From positions 1 to 39,026 of the forward strand of contig JAJTXZ010000046.1 of NCBI GenBank assembly GCA_021463195.1: a stretch of 39,026 nt of DNA, given 5' to 3'. The position numbers were made by a program, and so were the translations under genes. The notes below the pieces were generated by a model. It saw only the letters and a program-made list of their open reading frames with translations. It made no database searches and was not told the DNA's origin. This document shows positions 2-8,562 of this stretch, piece after piece; the first letter of the stretch is position 1; each line of letters begins with the position of its first letter. The stretch comes from Anaerolineae bacterium (lineage in GTDB: Bacteria; Chloroflexota; Anaerolineae; UBA4142; SHND01).

Positions 2-1018
2 GCCCAGTTCCTCAAGGATTACGCGGCGGCTGGCGGCGACCCCAAGAATATCGTCTTTTCGCCGCAAACGTATGACGCGGTGAACGTCCTCTCCGATGCT
101 TTGAAAGCCGTCGCCAAGACTGACGCCGATGGCAATCTCGTTATCGGACGCAAAGCGTTGGCGGAAGCCGTTCGCAAAGTCAAGATTGATGGCGTGACCG
201 GCGCAATTTCGTTCGATTCCACCGGCGACCGTCCGCCTGAATCCACCAACGTCATCATCAACCAAGTTCAAGGCGACAAATGGGTCCAGGTTTATCCGAA
301 ACCCGAATCCAGCAGCGGCACGATGCCCGATCTCGGCGGCAAAGAAATTACCATCGCCGTCGAAAATGCGTATCCGCCCTTTAATGCGATTGATACCACT
401 ACCGGCAAAGGCGTGGGCTGGGATTACGATGCTCTCGCGGAAATTTGCAAGCGCATCAACTGCAAGCCCGTGTTCAAGGAAATCGGTTGGGACGGGATGC
501 TCGCCGCGGTCAGTCAAAATCAATTCGACATGGCAGCCGATGGCGTCACGATCACCGACGAACGCGCCAAGACAGTTGATTTTTCGGACCCATATCTCGC
601 CGTAAGTCAGGTGGTTATGGCGCGTACAGACGAAACCCGCTTCAAAACACTCGCCGAAGCCAAAGCGATGAAAGATTTGAAAGTGGGCACCCAAAAAGGC
701 ACGACCAATTACGACGAAGCGGTCAAAGTTTGGGGCGAAGCCAATGTCGTGGGCTTGGACCAATTCCCGGAAGCGGTCAACGCGCTCATTACGAAACAAG
801 TTGATATCGTCGTCGCGGATGATTCATTCGCCAAAGAATACTTGACTGCCAACGCCGACAAAATCAAAATTCTCGACGAACCATTGGTGACACAATATCT
901 CGGTTTCGTATTCCCCAAAGGATCGAGTCTCGTAGCGTCCGTGAACGCCGCCATTGCCGCAATGAAAGCGGACGGCACGCTCGATGCGCTCGCGAAAAAG
1001 TGGTTCGAAAATCAATAA
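2..1018 (+). CDS. Fused ABC-transporter substrate-binding protein (type I LivJ-like domain + type II GlnH-like domain), 5'-truncated
   Basis: The reading frame is open from base 2, so the N-terminus, including any signal peptide, lies outside the window. The first ~95 visible residues match the C-terminal part of a LivJ-type (Peripla_BP_6) binding protein: a tract around YDAVNVL, then a helix and strand region ending DKWVQVYP. The complete LivJ paralogue at 4973 has a comparable C-terminus. After a short Pro/Ser/Gly linker ([10 protein letters not shown]) a complete SBP_bac_3 domain of about 225 residues follows, with typical features: [19 protein letters not shown], the [21 protein letters not shown]-type hinge and a final LAKKWFENQ. 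Two unrelated binding folds in one chain is unusual. The next two genes are a polar amino-acid permease and ATPase, so the second domain probably serves them in uptake of an amino acid. The ligand is not predictable from the sequence. Confidence 0.85.
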
Positions 1019-2857: not shown

Positions 2858-3634
2858 ATGCCAACCATTCTCCAAGCTCAAGGCGTCACCAAACGATTCG
2901 GCGGTCTGACCGCCGTGGACAAGGTTGACTTTACCATCGAAGAAGGTTCGATTATCAGTCTCATCGGACCCAACGGCGCGGGCAAGACGACCTTTTTTAA
3001 TTGCATCACCGGCTATTACACGCCCGAAGAAGGCAGCATCCAATTTCAAGGCGTTCCAACCGTCGGACTCAAGATGCACCAAATCACCAAACTCGGCATC
3101 GCGCGCACATTTCAAAATATTCGTCTGTTCGGAAATATGACCGCGCTTGAAAATGTAATGGTCGGTCAAGACCCGACAATGAAAGCGGGCGTCATCGGCG
3201 CGGTAATGAAAAATAAAAACACGCGTCAAGAAGAAGAACGCGTCACGACGCGCGGCCAAGAGCTGATGAAGTTCACCGGTTTGCGCGGCAAAGAAAATAC
3301 TCTGGCGAAAAATCTCGCCTATGGCGATCAGCGCCGTTTGGAAATCGCGCGCGCGCTCGGCACCAACCCGAAACTTTTATTGCTCGACGAACCAACCGCC
3401 GGCATGAATCCGCAAGAATCGCTGTCCATGGTGGATTTCATTCGCAAACTGCGTCAGGAAATGAATCTCACGATTTTACTCATCGAACATCACATGCGCG
3501 TCGTTATGACCATCTCTGAACGGGTGACGGTGCTCGATTTCGGCGTCAAGATTGCGGAAGGTTCGCCGCAACAAGTGCAGCAAAACCCGCGCGTCCGCGA
3601 AGCGTATCTCGGCACTTCGGAAATGCATATCTAA
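2858..3634 (+). CDS. livG: Branched-chain amino-acid-type ABC transporter ATPase LivG
   Basis: This 258-residue ATPase is one of two nucleotide-binding subunits of the Liv-type importer. Walker A GPNGAGKTT is at 37-45. The Q-loop is FQNIRLF near 86-91. The signature is the variant LAYGDQRRLEIARAL (153-167) typical of LivG rather than the canonical LSGGQ. Walker B LLLLDEPTAGMNPQE begins at 173 and the switch His is in LLIEHHMRVVM. AGMNPxE and the EAYLG C-terminus also point to LivG. LivF follows 81 nt downstream and the binding protein and permeases beyond it. The order G-F-J-H-M differs from the enteric one but all five parts are present. Confidence 0.95.
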   Translation: MPTILQAQGVTKRFGGLTAVDKVDFTIEEGSIISLIGPNGAGKTTFFNCITGYYTPEEGSIQFQGVPTVGLKMHQITKLGIARTFQNIRLFGNMTALENVMVGQDPTMKAGVIGAVMKNKNTRQEEERVTTRGQELMKFTGLRGKENTLAKNLAYGDQRRLEIARALGTNPKLLLLDEPTAGMNPQESLSMVDFIRKLRQEMNLTILLIEHHMRVVMTISERVTVLDFGVKIAEGSPQQVQQNPRVREAYLGTSEMHI

Positions 3635-3715: not shown

Positions 3716-4429
3716 ATGCCGCTCCTTGAAGTCAACGACATTCACACCTATTACGGTCATATTTACGCGCTCAAAGGAATTTCGCTCACCGTCGAACAGG
3801 GTGAAATTGTAACGCTCATCGGCGCGAACGGCGCGGGCAAAACCACCACGCTGAAAACGATTTCGGGTTTGCTGCATCCGCGCGCCGGCACCATCAAATT
3901 GCAGGGCGAACAAATTAGCGGACTCCCCGCCCACGTCATTGTCGGCAAAGGCATCGGACAATCGCCCGAAGGACGACAAATTTTTACGCGCCTGTCCGTG
4001 TTAGAAAATCTAGAGATGGGCGCCTATTCGCGCACGGACAAAGCCGATATTCATAAAGATCTCGACCACGTATTCAGTTTATTTCCACGTCTAGCCGAAC
4101 GCCGCACTCAAGCCGGCGGGACATTATCAGGGGGCGAACAGCAGATGCTCGCGATGGGGCGCGCGCTCATGACGCGCCCGCGCATCCTCTTGCTCGACGA
4201 ACCCTCAATGGGTCTCGCGCCCGTGCTAGTAGACACCATTTTTGACATCATCAAGGCATTGAATCAAGAAGGCGTAACGATTTTGTTGGTTGAACAGAAC
4301 GCCGCGCGCGCCCTTTCGGTGGCGAACCGCGGTTACGTATTGGAAACAGGACATATTTTTCTTCAAGGCAGCGCGCACGAACTTGCCATCAATGAACAAG
4401 TGCGTAAAGCGTATCTGGGCGAAGAGTAA
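3716..4429 (+). CDS. livF: Branched-chain amino-acid-type ABC transporter ATPase LivF
   Basis: This 237-residue ATPase is the partner of LivG in the Liv-type importer. Walker A GANGAGKTT is at 36-44, the Q-loop is GQSPEGRQIF (81-90), signature LSGGEQQMLAMGRAL begins at 137, and Walker B ILLLDEPSMGLAP begins at 157. The switch region is LLVEQNAARAL. SPEGRxIF, DEPSxGLAP and VEQNA are hallmarks of LivF, and the length is normal. The C-terminus VRKAYLGEE is also typical. No strong Shine-Dalgarno motif is visible immediately upstream. A 543-bp gene-free stretch separates it from the binding-protein gene. Confidence 0.95.
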   Translation: MPLLEVNDIHTYYGHIYALKGISLTVEQGEIVTLIGANGAGKTTTLKTISGLLHPRAGTIKLQGEQISGLPAHVIVGKGIGQSPEGRQIFTRLSVLENLEMGAYSRTDKADIHKDLDHVFSLFPRLAERRTQAGGTLSGGEQQMLAMGRALMTRPRILLLDEPSMGLAPVLVDTIFDIIKALNQEGVTILLVEQNAARALSVANRGYVLETGHIFLQGSAHELAINEQVRKAYLGEE

Positions 4430-4843
4430 TTGTCCGCCCGCGCGCGATTCATTCTGATTGCCCGCGCCACGCGCGTCGGCGCATTCAACAAACATCTAAA
4501 TTACACCGCCGCAGGACAAATTCGCGATTTATTGTCCCAGCGCGCGCCATTTTTCAATCACAGCGCGTAACGTCAAGCAATAACCCTTTCAGCCATATGC
4601 GCGTCAAAATCAAAATATATTAGCGCTTTATCATGCGTTTCTCGTTTATTTCCAATTTAGCAAAGATATAGTTCAACTCAAAAGTCTCGCAGCCGCGCGC
4701 CAGCGCAAAACTCGCGCCGCGCGCGGCATGCTAACGAAATACGCGCGCAAACGTCTCGCATACCCAAGACCTATTCTGACCGCGCCGCAAGTTGGGCGCA
4801 AATCCGTAAACTCGGCACACATTTCGTTACAGCAGAAGACGCT

Positions 4844-4858
4844 AAAAAGGAGGTGATC
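4844..4858 (+). promoter_or_regulatory. Orphan extended Shine-Dalgarno sequence
   Basis: AAAAAGGAGGTGATC contains AAAGGAGGTGATC, complementary to the usual bacterial 16S 3' tail over 13 bases. No ATG, GTG or TTG lies at the usual spacing downstream, and the true LivJ start with its own ribosome-binding site is about 115 nt further on. A GTG embedded in the motif would open only a short frame ending at 4920. Confidence 0.4.
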
Positions 4859-4909
4859 GCGCCGCTCAAATTTTTTATTTCACGTTCACCGCGCAAGTAT
4901 GGCGAACTT

Positions 4910-4929
4910 GGCGAATTCTAAAATTCGCC
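4910..4929. promoter_or_regulatory. Perfect 8-bp inverted repeat upstream of LivJ
   Basis: GGCGAATT (4910-4917) and AATTCGCC (4922-4929) are exact inverted copies around CTAA. The position, 44 nt before the LivJ start codon, suits an operator or a leader hairpin. There is no T tract. Confidence 0.45.
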
Positions 4930-4972
4930 ACGCGGTCAATCATCAATTAGGACGATTCAGGAGGAGAAAAGA

Positions 4973-6205
4973 ATGAAGTACAAGATGTTGCTCATCACAA
5001 CGTTGGTCGTCGCGATGGCATTGGTCGTCGTAGGATGCGGCGGCGCCGGCGGCGATGGAAATAACACGATCAAGATTATTTCCAGCACTCCGCTCACCGG
5101 CGGCGATTCCGCTGACGGCATCTCGATGGCAAATTCCGCCAAACTGGCGCTGGAAGCGCATGGCGCAAAATCCGGTAACTATAACATTGTTCTCGAAACG
5201 CTGGATGATGCCAGCGCGGCGCGTGGCGCGTGGGACCCTGACGTTGAAACCAGCAACGCGAACAAAGCTGTCGCCGACAAAAGCGTGATGGCGTATCTCG
5301 GCACCTACAATTCGGGCGCGGCAAAACTTTCCATCCCCATTCTCAATGCCGCCGGTCCGATGGTCATGGTTAGCGGCGGCAATACCTACGCCGGTTTGAC
5401 CAAATCGTTGCCCGGCTTGACCGAAAAAGACGAACCCGGCAAATATTATCCGACGGGCGTCCGCAACTATGCGCGCGTCGTCGCGCCGGACGATGTGCAA
5501 GGCGCAGTGGGCGCGCGCTGGGCTAAAGAACGCGGCGTCACGAGCGTTTACATTATTGACGACCAACAGTTGTACGGCAAAGGCATCGCCGATGTTTATG
5601 AAGCCACCGCCAAAGAACTGGGTATCCAAATTCTCGGACATGAAGGCACGGATACCAAAGCCACCGACTATAGCGCGCTGGCAACCAAGATTACCAATTT
5701 GAATCCGGATGCTGTATTCTATGGCGCGGTCAGTTCGAGCCATGCCGGTCTCATTTGGAAAGCGCTGCGCGCCGCCGGTTACAAAGGCGAATTGTCCGGC
5801 CCGGACGGCATGCTGTCCGAAAACTTTTTGAAAGAAGCTGGCCCGGACGCGGAAGGCACCTTCCTCACGTTCGCCGGTCTGCCGGTGGAAAAATTGATTG
5901 AACTCAGCCCCGAAGGCAAAGCCTGGTACGAAGCATACAAAAAGAAATTCAATCAAGAACCCGGCGCGTACGGCGCGTACGGTTACGAAGCCGCGCTGGC
6001 GGTCCTGAAAGCCATTGACAACTGCGTCGCCAAGAACACGGTCACGCGCGCCTGCGTGCGCGACGAAGTGTTTGCGACCAAAGATTTCAAAGGTATTCTC
6101 GGCACGGTCTGGTCTTTTGACCCCAACGGCGATACGACCGTAGTAACCATGTCCAAGAATGTAGTCGAGAACGGCGATTTCAAGTATCTCGGCATCGCGC
6201 AATAA
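4973..6205 (+). CDS. livJ: Branched-chain amino-acid-type substrate-binding lipoprotein (LivJ-like)
   Basis: This 410-residue extracytoplasmic binding protein captures ligand for the LivHMGF importer. The N-terminus is a lipoprotein signal: basic MKYK, a hydrophobic core, then lipobox VVGC with the acylated Cys near residue 22, followed by Gly/Asn-rich linker. The mature part has the Peripla_BP_6 pattern: SSTPLTGG, MANSAKLAL, a YLGTYNS/AAGPMVMVS tract, NYARVVAPDDVQGAVGA and YIIDDQQLYGKGIADV. It ends with a YGAYGYEAALAVLKAI helix. Two cysteines near the C-terminus could form a disulfide. A strong ribosome-binding site, AGGAGGAG, lies 5 nt before the ATG. The ligand could be a branched-chain amino acid, an amide or another small metabolite; family members vary widely. 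Confidence 0.93.
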   Translation: MKYKMLLITTLVVAMALVVVGCGGAGGDGNNTIKIISSTPLTGGDSADGISMANSAKLALEAHGAKSGNYNIVLETLDDASAARGAWDPDVETSNANKAVADKSVMAYLGTYNSGAAKLSIPILNAAGPMVMVSGGNTYAGLTKSLPGLTEKDEPGKYYPTGVRNYARVVAPDDVQGAVGARWAKERGVTSVYIIDDQQLYGKGIADVYEATAKELGIQILGHEGTDTKATDYSALATKITNLNPDAVFYGAVSSSHAGLIWKALRAAGYKGELSGPDGMLSENFLKEAGPDAEGTFLTFAGLPVEKLIELSPEGKAWYEAYKKKFNQEPGAYGAYGYEAALAVLKAIDNCVAKNTVTRACVRDEVFATKDFKGILGTVWSFDPNGDTTVVTMSKNVVENGDFKYLGIAQ

Positions 6206-6225: not shown

Positions 6226-6261
6226 AGGGACAGGTTGCGCGCGCTTGGGCAACCTGTCCCT
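6226..6261 (+). promoter_or_regulatory. Perfect 13-bp stem-loop between LivJ and LivH genes
   Basis: AGGGACAGGTTGC (6226-6238) is exactly complementary to GCAACCTGTCCCT (6249-6261) around a 10-nt loop. No T tract follows. It sits 20 nt after the LivJ stop and 35 nt before the LivH ATG. It probably protects the LivJ message or partly terminates transcription, giving more binding protein than permease. Confidence 0.75.
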
Positions 6262-6295
6262 CTGCCCGCCCAACGCCAAAGGTCACCGCCCGCAC

Positions 6296-7339
6296 ATGAA
6301 ATCAAAACTCACGATTCGTAGTATCGCTCTGTGGCTAATTCTGGCTGCCACAGCCGTGTTTCTCATCACATCGTTCCTCGCCAATCCCGCGCTGTTTATT
6401 CAACAGCTTCTCAATGGACTCGCGCAGGGTTCTATCTTTGCGCTCGTCGCGCTCGGCTATACGATGGTTTATGGCATCATCGAATTGATTAATTTCGCGC
6501 ACGGCGACGTTTACATGATTGGCGCATTCACCGGTTTGACGATTGCCAGTTTGCTCGGCGCTAGCGAGCAATCTGACCCATCCCTTAGAATCTTTACGCT
6601 CCTCTTGATGTTTATCACCGCTCCCATCGTGTGCGCCATTCTAAATGTAACGATTGACCGACTCGCGTATCGTCCGCTGCGCAACGCGCCGCGCATCGTC
6701 GTGCTAATCACCGCCATCGGTATGTCGTTCATCCTTGAACAAATCGGTCTCTGGTGGGCGCAGCTCGGCGCGCTGAGTTATTTCGGCGGCAGCGGCGCGA
6801 CCCCAAAATCTTTTCCCGCCCTTATCCCCAAGATTAATCTGCTTGCCGATACCGCAATCAACATCAATTTGACCCCCAAGATGGTTTTCGCGTTGGCGTT
6901 GGCGATTCCGCTCATGGTTGCGCTGCGCCTGCTTGTCCAACGAACGCGTATCGGCAAGGCAATGCGCGCCACCGCGCAAAACCGCGAAGCATCGAGTTTG
7001 ATGGGCATCAACATCAATCGCATCATTTCCATCACCTTTATCATCGGCGGCGCGCTCGCAGGCGTTGGCGGCGTCGCGGGCGGACTCTATTTCGAGGGCG
7101 TCCAATGGAATATGGGTTTTGATATGGGACTCAAAGCGTTCACCGCCGCCGTGTTGGGCGGCATCGGCAACATCACCGGCGCCATGCTCGGCGGTTTCTT
7201 TATCGGAGTCGTCTCGGCGCTTAGCGACCAATATTTAGCGGGACAATGGACCCGCGCTGTCGTCTTTGGTCTTTTGGTGTTGGTTTTGGTCTTTCGACCC
7301 ACCGGGCTTCTTGGCACCGGCGTCCAGCAAAAAGCTTGA
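6296..7339 (+). CDS. livH: Branched-chain amino-acid-type ABC permease LivH
   Basis: This 347-residue polytopic permease is one half of the transmembrane channel. It has an N-terminal helix (about 9-28) and then the family hallmark LLNGLAQGSIFALVALGYTMVYGIIELINFAHGD (about 38-71 as a region). Later come NAPRIVVLITAIGMSFILE, a QRTRIGKAMRATAQNREAS EAA-like loop, AFTAAVLGGIGNITGAMLGG and a final VFGLLVLVLVFRPTGLLG. ATG 6296 is preferred over an upstream in-frame TTG at 6245. The latter would add 17 residues read through the 6226-6261 hairpin and has no family counterpart. It is followed after 20 nt by LivM. Confidence 0.93.
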   Translation: MKSKLTIRSIALWLILAATAVFLITSFLANPALFIQQLLNGLAQGSIFALVALGYTMVYGIIELINFAHGDVYMIGAFTGLTIASLLGASEQSDPSLRIFTLLLMFITAPIVCAILNVTIDRLAYRPLRNAPRIVVLITAIGMSFILEQIGLWWAQLGALSYFGGSGATPKSFPALIPKINLLADTAININLTPKMVFALALAIPLMVALRLLVQRTRIGKAMRATAQNREASSLMGININRIISITFIIGGALAGVGGVAGGLYFEGVQWNMGFDMGLKAFTAAVLGGIGNITGAMLGGFFIGVVSALSDQYLAGQWTRAVVFGLLVLVLVFRPTGLLGTGVQQKA

Positions 7340-7359
7340 CCGCGAATGGAGACACAAAC

Positions 7360-8562
7360 ATGACAGCTCAATTAAGCCCGAATCGCATCGGATTGTGGCT
7401 TCGCGAACATTGGAAGCTCACAATCTTTGTGATTCTCATTGCGTTATTTCCGTTTTTTGATACTTTCCTCCAGGAAAGTTCCGATTATGTTCTGGGCGGA
7501 TATACCGGCACGCTGGTTACAGTTTTGATGTACGCGATGCTCGCGCTCGGGCTAAATATCGTCGTAGGATACGCCGGCTTGTTGGATTTGGGGTACGCGG
7601 CATTTTTCGCGATTGGCGCCTATGCCATGACGCTGATTAGCACACCGCATCCTCCTTGGGGCATTCCCGTTCCCTTCCCGTTCAACTATTTTTGGATTGC
7701 CCTGTTCTTGTCTGCGCTCATTGCAATGGTCAGCGGCGTCATTCTCGGCGCGCCCACCATTCCACTGCGCGGCGATTATCTCGCCATCGTCACGCTCGGT
7801 TTTGGCGAAATTGTCCCAGTGCTTTTTCGCAATCTGACCTGCGTCACCATCCCCTTTCTGAATATCGAATGTCTGGATTTGACGGCGGGCGAACGCGGAG
7901 TTAGTCTCGTCGCGCTGCCCGGCATCCCGGGGCTATATACCTTTAACAAGATTGACCTCGCGCCGTGGTATTGGCTGGGCTTGCTCATCATCGCCGCCGC
8001 CATTTTCATGAATCGGCGGCTAGAAGATTCGCGCTTGGGACGCGCCTGGATGGCAATGCGCGAAGATGAAGAAGCCGCCGCTTCAATGGGTATTGATATT
8101 GTGCGTACCAAGCTCCTCGCTTTCGCGATGGGCGCCACCTTTAGCGGCTTCGCGGGCGCATATTTTGCCTCATACATTCAAGCCGTCTTTCCGAGCAGTT
8201 TCGATTTTACCGTTTCCGTAACTGTATTGTGCGCCGTTGTATTGGGCGGCAGCGGCAATCCGTATGGCGCGCTGCTCGGCGGAATTCTAGTCGCAGGCAT
8301 TGACCGCATCGGTCTAAATCTAATGACCACTGGCGCGCATAAATTGGGCGAAATCATTCCCTTTCTAAGCGGCATTGATTTTCAATTATGGCGTTATGGC
8401 CTCTACGGCTTGGCGCTCGTCATTGTCATGCTCGTCCGTCCGCAAGGACTCTTGCCAAGCAAAACGCGAGCGCGCGAATTGCTCGAAGGCGCCGAACTCG
8501 ATATCGAGTCCGGCATGGAGGCGGCGGAACAAGAGGTTGGACGCGAAAGCAAAGCGGGTTAA
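7360..8562 (+). CDS. livM: Branched-chain amino-acid-type ABC permease LivM
   Basis: This 400-residue permease is the partner of LivH. Family signatures are LALGLNIVVGYAGLLDLGYAAFFAIGAY in the second to third membrane segments, LRGDYLAIVTLGFGEIV, the cytoplasmic EAA-like loop RLGRAWMAMREDEEAAASMGID, and VLGGSGNPYGALLGG. It closes with the typical VMLVRPQGLLPSK. A hydrophilic acidic tail of about 35 residues follows. The start is ATG 7360, with GGAG 8 nt upstream; longer readings into LivH are not supported. It is the last gene of the transport block, since an intrinsic terminator begins 3 nt after the stop. Confidence 0.93.
   Translation: MTAQLSPNRIGLWLREHWKLTIFVILIALFPFFDTFLQESSDYVLGGYTGTLVTVLMYAMLALGLNIVVGYAGLLDLGYAAFFAIGAYAMTLISTPHPPWGIPVPFPFNYFWIALFLSALIAMVSGVILGAPTIPLRGDYLAIVTLGFGEIVPVLFRNLTCVTIPFLNIECLDLTAGERGVSLVALPGIPGLYTFNKIDLAPWYWLGLLIIAAAIFMNRRLEDSRLGRAWMAMREDEEAAASMGIDIVRTKLLAFAMGATFSGFAGAYFASYIQAVFPSSFDFTVSVTVLCAVVLGGSGNPYGALLGGILVAGIDRIGLNLMTTGAHKLGEIIPFLSGIDFQLWRYGLYGLALVIVMLVRPQGLLPSKTRARELLEGAELDIESGMEAAEQEVGRESKAG

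Follow-up and report, generated by a model that had tools for sequence, protein, structure and literature searches.

A lipoprotein of Anaerolineae that joins LivJ- and GlnH-type solute-binding domains on one chain and may serve more than one ABC importer

A solute-binding lipoprotein that joins a LivJ (type I) domain to a GlnH (type II) domain on one polypeptide is encoded between livHM and glnPQ genes in an uncultured Anaerolineae genus (phylum Chloroflexota). This protein probably acts as a shared receptor with several heads that serves several ABC importers, each head docking on its own permease. The fusion was identified at the edge of the window, a stretch of 39,026 nucleotides that makes up the entire contig C85 of a genome in 143 contigs (G000). 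The frame at 2–1018 (+) is open from the contig edge through a TAA stop codon and has no start; it represents the 3′ portion of a gene that extends past this edge and encodes 338 residues.

Pfam analysis of the window protein placed ANF_receptor at residues 10–79 (profile positions 266–343 of 353) and SBP_bac_3 at residues 116–336 (E-value 1e-38, profile positions 1–131/132), while the genus model assigned residues 2–101 to LivJ positions 271–369 of 370 and residues 109–338 to GlnH positions 1–230 of 232. Together they confirm the proposal of an earlier note, made from the sequence alone, that LivJ and GlnH domains are fused in one frame. The LivJ-type (type I) part, about 99 residues representing only the C-terminal ~27% of the domain, is encoded at 2–298 (+), its 5′ end being cut by the contig edge. 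It is followed by a linker of about 9–10 residues without a signal peptide or hydrophobic stretch (299–325, +) and by a complete GlnH-type (type II, SBP_bac_3) domain including the stop codon (326–1018, +). The latter belongs to the type II GlnH class (PF00497), matching the profile over its full length and carrying the α-carboxylate Arg188 (563–565, +) and the α-amino Asp273 (818–820, +); its nearest solved relatives are AncQR and ArtJ. The full-length profile of the type I LivJ class (PF13458/PF01094) is matched by the relatives, whose whole LivJ domains, in proteins with one copy, give Peripla_BP_6 E-values between 1e-38 and 1e-45, the window covering profile positions 266–343 only.

Downstream of the receptor gene, all on the forward strand, lie glnP (1090–1935), encoding a polar amino-acid permease without a fused binding domain, and the ATPase gene glnQ (1942–2691), followed by the ATPase genes livG (2858–3634) and livF (3716–4429). 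The second liv set continues with livJ2 (4973–6205), encoding an unfused type I binding lipoprotein, and the permease genes livH2 (6245–7339) and livM2 (7246–8562), the true start of livM2 probably lying 3′ of 7246 and past the livH2 stop. This order agrees with the earlier reading of a glnPQ pair followed by a livG/F/J/H/M set. A 14-bp RNA hairpin is found between the receptor gene and glnP (1049–1080, +). Each of the six genomes in the genus has a strong hairpin at this position, with differing sequence, and comparable ones are present at several unfused glnH-glnP junctions of relatives. Hairpins of this kind between receptor and permease genes may raise expression of the receptor over that of the permease. 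An Rfam search of the window returned no match. A short tandem repeat of GCAGATT is located between glnQ and livG (2785–2811), and the 543 bases separating livF from livJ2 (4430–4972) contain no recognised gene or Rfam RNA.

The N-terminus of the fusion is encoded at one end of a second contig in the window genome, C56 (129,378 bp), identified by searching the window genome with the livM of a relative. The base-1 end of C56 reads livH1, livM1 and then the fusion start (MKRTLVYGLTVLALVLAIGAC...DEWGDVVVKKGDTIKASFSAAMTGDLALFGQDM, up to the contig edge), which encodes a signal peptide, a lipobox cysteine, a PTAAPAQ-rich spacer and LivJ positions 1–33; there is thus no stop just ahead of base 1 of the window, which the earlier note had named as a refuting condition. 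Because the end of C56 carries livH1, livM1 and the fusion start, C56 and C85 most likely flank one gene, but the assembly lacks at least ~237 of its residues (LivJ positions about 34–270, or these plus another LivJ). Repetition of the LivJ domain, as seen in genome G002 below, could explain the assembly break at this point. Read by pattern, the lipobox is IGAC at the C56 start and ISAC or IAAC in relatives, identifying the fusions as lipoproteins. Immediately 5′ of the fusion start (L113:286–310, −), the ribosome-binding site lies within the loop of a short palindrome (GTTCTC-GGAGGAG-GAGAAC), which is kept in five of the six genomes (also seen in L035–L038) and weaker in G001, with translation control as a possible role.

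The whole fusion gene is present at the same locus in five other, independently assembled genomes of the genus, as the earlier note had asked of related genomes, and a chance join in the window assembly, the other refuting condition of that note, is thereby excluded. The gene order livH1-livM1-fusion-glnP-glnQ-livG-livF-livJ2-livH2-livM2 is common to 6/6 genomes, livH2 and livM2 of G004 lying past the stretch read. Domain architecture varies: G001 (684 aa) and G004 (705 aa) encode LivJ-GlnH, G002 (1043 aa; JAJVIA010000031.1, Anaerolineae bacterium Bin_34) encodes LivJ-LivJ-GlnH, G003 (693 aa) GlnH-LivJ and G005 (1070 aa) GlnH-LivJ-LivJ, and linker length is 9–30 residues. In G002 a single base out of 1104 separates the two LivJ copies, which points to a very recent origin, homogenisation or an assembly effect; the G005 pair, at 85% identity and a dS of 0.75, represents an old and certain duplication. 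None of the fusions contains a permease domain, glnP being separate. The C-terminal tails of G001 and G004 (...GPGAYGPTPTPKP) were considered as a fossil of the G003 GlnH-to-LivJ linker left by circular permutation via tandem duplication. This reading was rejected: single GlnH proteins of other families align through the same tail, which therefore belongs to GlnH.

The sister family within the order has unfused glnH and livJ genes in a glnHPQ-livGF-livJHM cluster (some members missing within the stretch read), suggesting that the genus joined a second livHM(J) set to the gln set and that livJ and glnH became one gene. Within the genus, the sole LivJ beside livH1M1 and the sole GlnH beside glnPQ are the fused ones. 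In the LivJ-first forms, the GlnH half lacks an export signal of its own and is thus exportable only as part of the fusion.

As judged by sequence, both halves are ordinary members of their families. The LivJ half matches the E. coli LIV-binding protein with an E-value of 9e-35, and the GlnH half matches AncQR, ArtJ and GlnBP with E-values of 1e-34 to 1e-22. Of the three residues that hold the amino-acid backbone in the E. coli LIV-binding protein, Ser79 and Thr102 are kept in the LivJ half of G001 and Glu226 is replaced by Asp; Cys78, Asp121 and Tyr150 are kept as well. The LivJ ligand motifs are alike in all whole relatives, at positions that lie outside the window. The GlnH half retains the ligand Arg and Asp, the residues that hold amino acids. 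Pairwise dN/dS values of 0.09–0.21 for LivJ and 0.04–0.20 for GlnH indicate that both halves are under purifying selection.

Across a small sample of five genomes, divergence of the GlnH half tracks that of GlnP (r 0.93; 7 of 120 permutations as high), divergence of the LivJ half tracks that of LivM1 (r 0.74; 4/120) and LivH1 (r 0.69; 5/120), and the GlnH and LivJ halves, despite being part of one polypeptide, do not track one another (correlation −0.31). This pattern pairs GlnH with GlnP and LivJ with LivM1/LivH1, which is support and not proof, and linkage of neighbouring genes could contribute to it. Separate histories of the two halves, suggested by identity matrices, were dropped as AU tests (p 0.07, 0.14 and 0.11) reject neither a common history nor a single clade of fusions. 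An AlphaFold model of the LivJ-GlnH protein of L002, based on a five-row alignment, had a mean pLDDT of 49 and was left unused.

Fused receptors with other partners are found elsewhere in the class. Genomes G147 and G110, which share a family and genus on a different branch of the class, have a common locus whose flanks are 78–85% identical at the nucleotide level on both sides. In G147 this locus encodes LivJ-GlnH followed by glnP, in G110 LivJ-DppA (SBP_bac_5) followed by dppB and dppC, and the two LivJ heads are 91% identical. A binding domain and its permease genes thus appear to have been exchanged together behind a constant LivJ head, a natural swap. Further combinations are LivJ-GlnH-DppA followed by dppB, dppC, glnP and glnQ (G036), LivJ-DppA followed by dppB and dppC (G066), GlnH-DppA followed by dppB, dppC, glnP and glnQ (G034), and GlnH-DppA followed by dppB and dppC (G051). 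In most loci read, a GlnH or DppA head travels with its permease. No livHM was detected near the LivJ heads of G147 and G036 within the fetched flanks, which leaves these heads with no evident partner and speaks against a strict pairing, and no GlnP match was detected for the GlnH head of G051 on its short contig or near the GlnH-DppA fusion of G281. GlnH-GlnH and GlnH-GlnH-GlnH fusions are also found in the same class, several of them adjoining glnP.

Among 396 genomes of the class, matches spanning LivJ and GlnH on one chain came from the genus itself, from G147 and from G201 (a LivJ-GlnH-GlnH form interrupted close to its start by one in-frame stop), to which G036 and the reversed forms are added. 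A phylum search of 400 genomes at an E-value of 1e-80 returned no spanning match except the truncated gene of the window genome, and none spanning both domains was returned from 249 genomes in the phylum of L003 (Alphaproteobacteria). These class, phylum and other-phylum counts are lower bounds, the best two to four candidates having been scored per genome. None of 72,556 plasmids gave a match with ≥80% query coverage. No description of a LivJ-GlnH or GlnH-DppA fusion was found in open-licence full texts.

We hypothesize that each chain of the shared receptor, carrying one (or two tandem) LivJ-type domains and one GlnH-type domain, would be anchored outside the membrane by its single lipobox cysteine, with each head binding its own amino-acid-like ligand. 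The LivJ head would dock on the LivH-LivM pair encoded just upstream and powered by LivG/LivF, and the GlnH head on GlnP-GlnQ, whose genes follow directly. The linkers would serve as flexible tethers, leaving domain order and copy number free to change; the observed order reversal, change in copy number and linkers of 9–30 residues favour such tethers over a gate fixed between the heads. From genomic context, the receptor is predicted to deliver to LivH1M1 as well as to GlnPQ. The nature of the ligands and docking to two transporters are likewise predicted, and the advantage may lie in high local concentration, fixed stoichiometry and the use of one anchor. The earlier note had offered two functions, presentation of different ligands or a first domain acting as a sensor that gates the second. 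The former is the best-supported reading, each domain keeping its amino-acid-binding residues and the gene lying between livHM and glnPQ, with the upstream livHM pair seen on C56 and in relatives only. The gating proposal is not supported: the order is reversed in two genomes, a second LivJ is present in two, the linkers vary, and the fusions carry neither a signalling nor a pore domain.

In the usual description, an ABC importer has a single receptor or carries several that belong to the same class. One chain with receptors of different classes, each with its own permease, would, if true, change this picture and provide a natural test of how receptors find their permeases. Multi-receptor ABC importers are already known, and it is the joining of type I and type II receptors that is unusual. 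Each half on its own is an ordinary member of the LivJ-LivHMGF or GlnH-GlnPQ importers, whereas here both receptors are one polypeptide. GlnPQ of Lactococcus lactis has a permease fused to a tandem pair of type II receptor domains and resembles the present system in having several amino-acid-binding domains per chain for ABC uptake and short linkers (PMC8025302). However, its domains are of the same class and sit on the permease, while the present fusion combines type I and type II domains on a lipid anchor beside free permeases of two kinds, and with no receptor fused to a permease it falls outside the tandem-receptor GlnPQ group. AdcA-type zinc-binding lipoproteins also carry two binding domains on one lipid anchor and feed an ABC importer (PMC7858048); both of their domains serve one zinc importer, whereas the present fusion joins amino-acid receptors that belong to two types of importer. 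Tentatively, the same scheme might extend across Anaerolineae, where heads of three classes (LivJ, GlnH and DppA) in variable order and number could share one lipid anchor, be swapped as cassettes with their cognate permeases, and allow one receptor to serve several structurally different ABC importers.

The assembly of glutamate receptors from bacterial parts is assumed, and the fusion is a bacterial chain with the same two folds, in the same order, as the glutamate receptor ectodomain in animals and plants. Eukaryotic ionotropic glutamate receptors carry an amino-terminal domain and a ligand-binding domain, type I then type II, on one chain (PMC3483616). They also contain pore helices, whereas the fusion has an uninterrupted SBP_bac_3 domain with no Lig_chan pore match, stands beside ABC permeases and is reversed in some relatives; as no pore is present, the likeness is a resemblance in parts and not membership. 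No two-domain bacterial form (type I plus type II) of this ectodomain was found in searchable open-licence papers. The resemblance raises the possibility, which we consider unlikely, that cargo is delivered by the GlnH head alone (to GlnPQ), with the LivJ head modulating the GlnH head in an allosteric or sensory role, like the amino-terminal domain of the eukaryotic receptors. The folds and their order match the ectodomain in four of six genomes, Pfam models of glutamate receptors match both halves, and G147 has glnP nearby, with no livHM in the stretch read. Nevertheless, a fixed allosteric interface is improbable given that G003 and G005 have the reverse order, G002 and G005 an extra LivJ, and linker length varies; moreover, livH1M1 lies directly upstream in the genus with no other LivJ beside it, and LivJ can instead be joined to a DppA head.

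LivHM-type permeases (BPD_transp_2) are the known partners of LivJ-class receptors. The adjacency of such a pair, the different structural class of LivJ and the divergence of LivJ, which follows LivM1/LivH1 and not GlnP, make it doubtful that both heads dock on GlnP and that the fusion merely widens the substrate range of one importer, even though GlnPQ importers with two fused receptor domains that compete for docking exist (PMC8025302) and tandem GlnH fusions, several adjoining glnP, occur in the same class. Quite improbable, too, is a neutral fusion in which loss of a stop codon joined neighbouring livJ and glnH genes into a tolerated, possibly cleaved product without shared function. The gene occupies precisely the site at which a livJ following livHM would meet a glnH preceding glnPQ, and the near-identical LivJ copies of G002 suggest a fresh duplication, but the fusion is kept in 6/6 genomes of the genus, has been rearranged yet always remains in one frame, and recurs in other families with other partners. 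An assembly or frameshift artefact is very improbable and, for the genus, already refuted: the gene is indeed broken by a contig end in the window genome, but it is whole in five other assemblies, and its N-terminal part is found in the same genome with the same gene order. The shared receptor with separately docking heads remains the preferred reading.

Several related proteins were observed in addition. Contig C3 of the window genome encodes a 754-aa protein combining a GlnH-type domain with an Ig-like domain (N_BRCA1_IG; L115:3097–5358, +). In L057:4621–8040 (−) and L091:7673–10552 (−), the fused DppA (SBP_bac_5) domains resemble circular permutations that begin with the profile's C-terminal portion and close the protein with its N-terminal portion, and the DppA domain of L095:8002–10542 (−) may be permuted likewise. 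GlnH-DppA fusions of 797–950 aa are encoded in Anaerolineae at L049:2515–4905 (−), L058:7939–10788 (+), where a haem-binding-like match precedes the fusion, and at the L095 locus just given. Many more GlnH matches fall in frames of 780–870 aa, suggesting that GlnH-DppA fusion may be common in the class. Tandem GlnH proteins with two or three domains and no fused permease are encoded at L096:2308–4767 (−), L043:3–1457 (+), L045:9499–11046 (+) and L047:9443–11242 (+).
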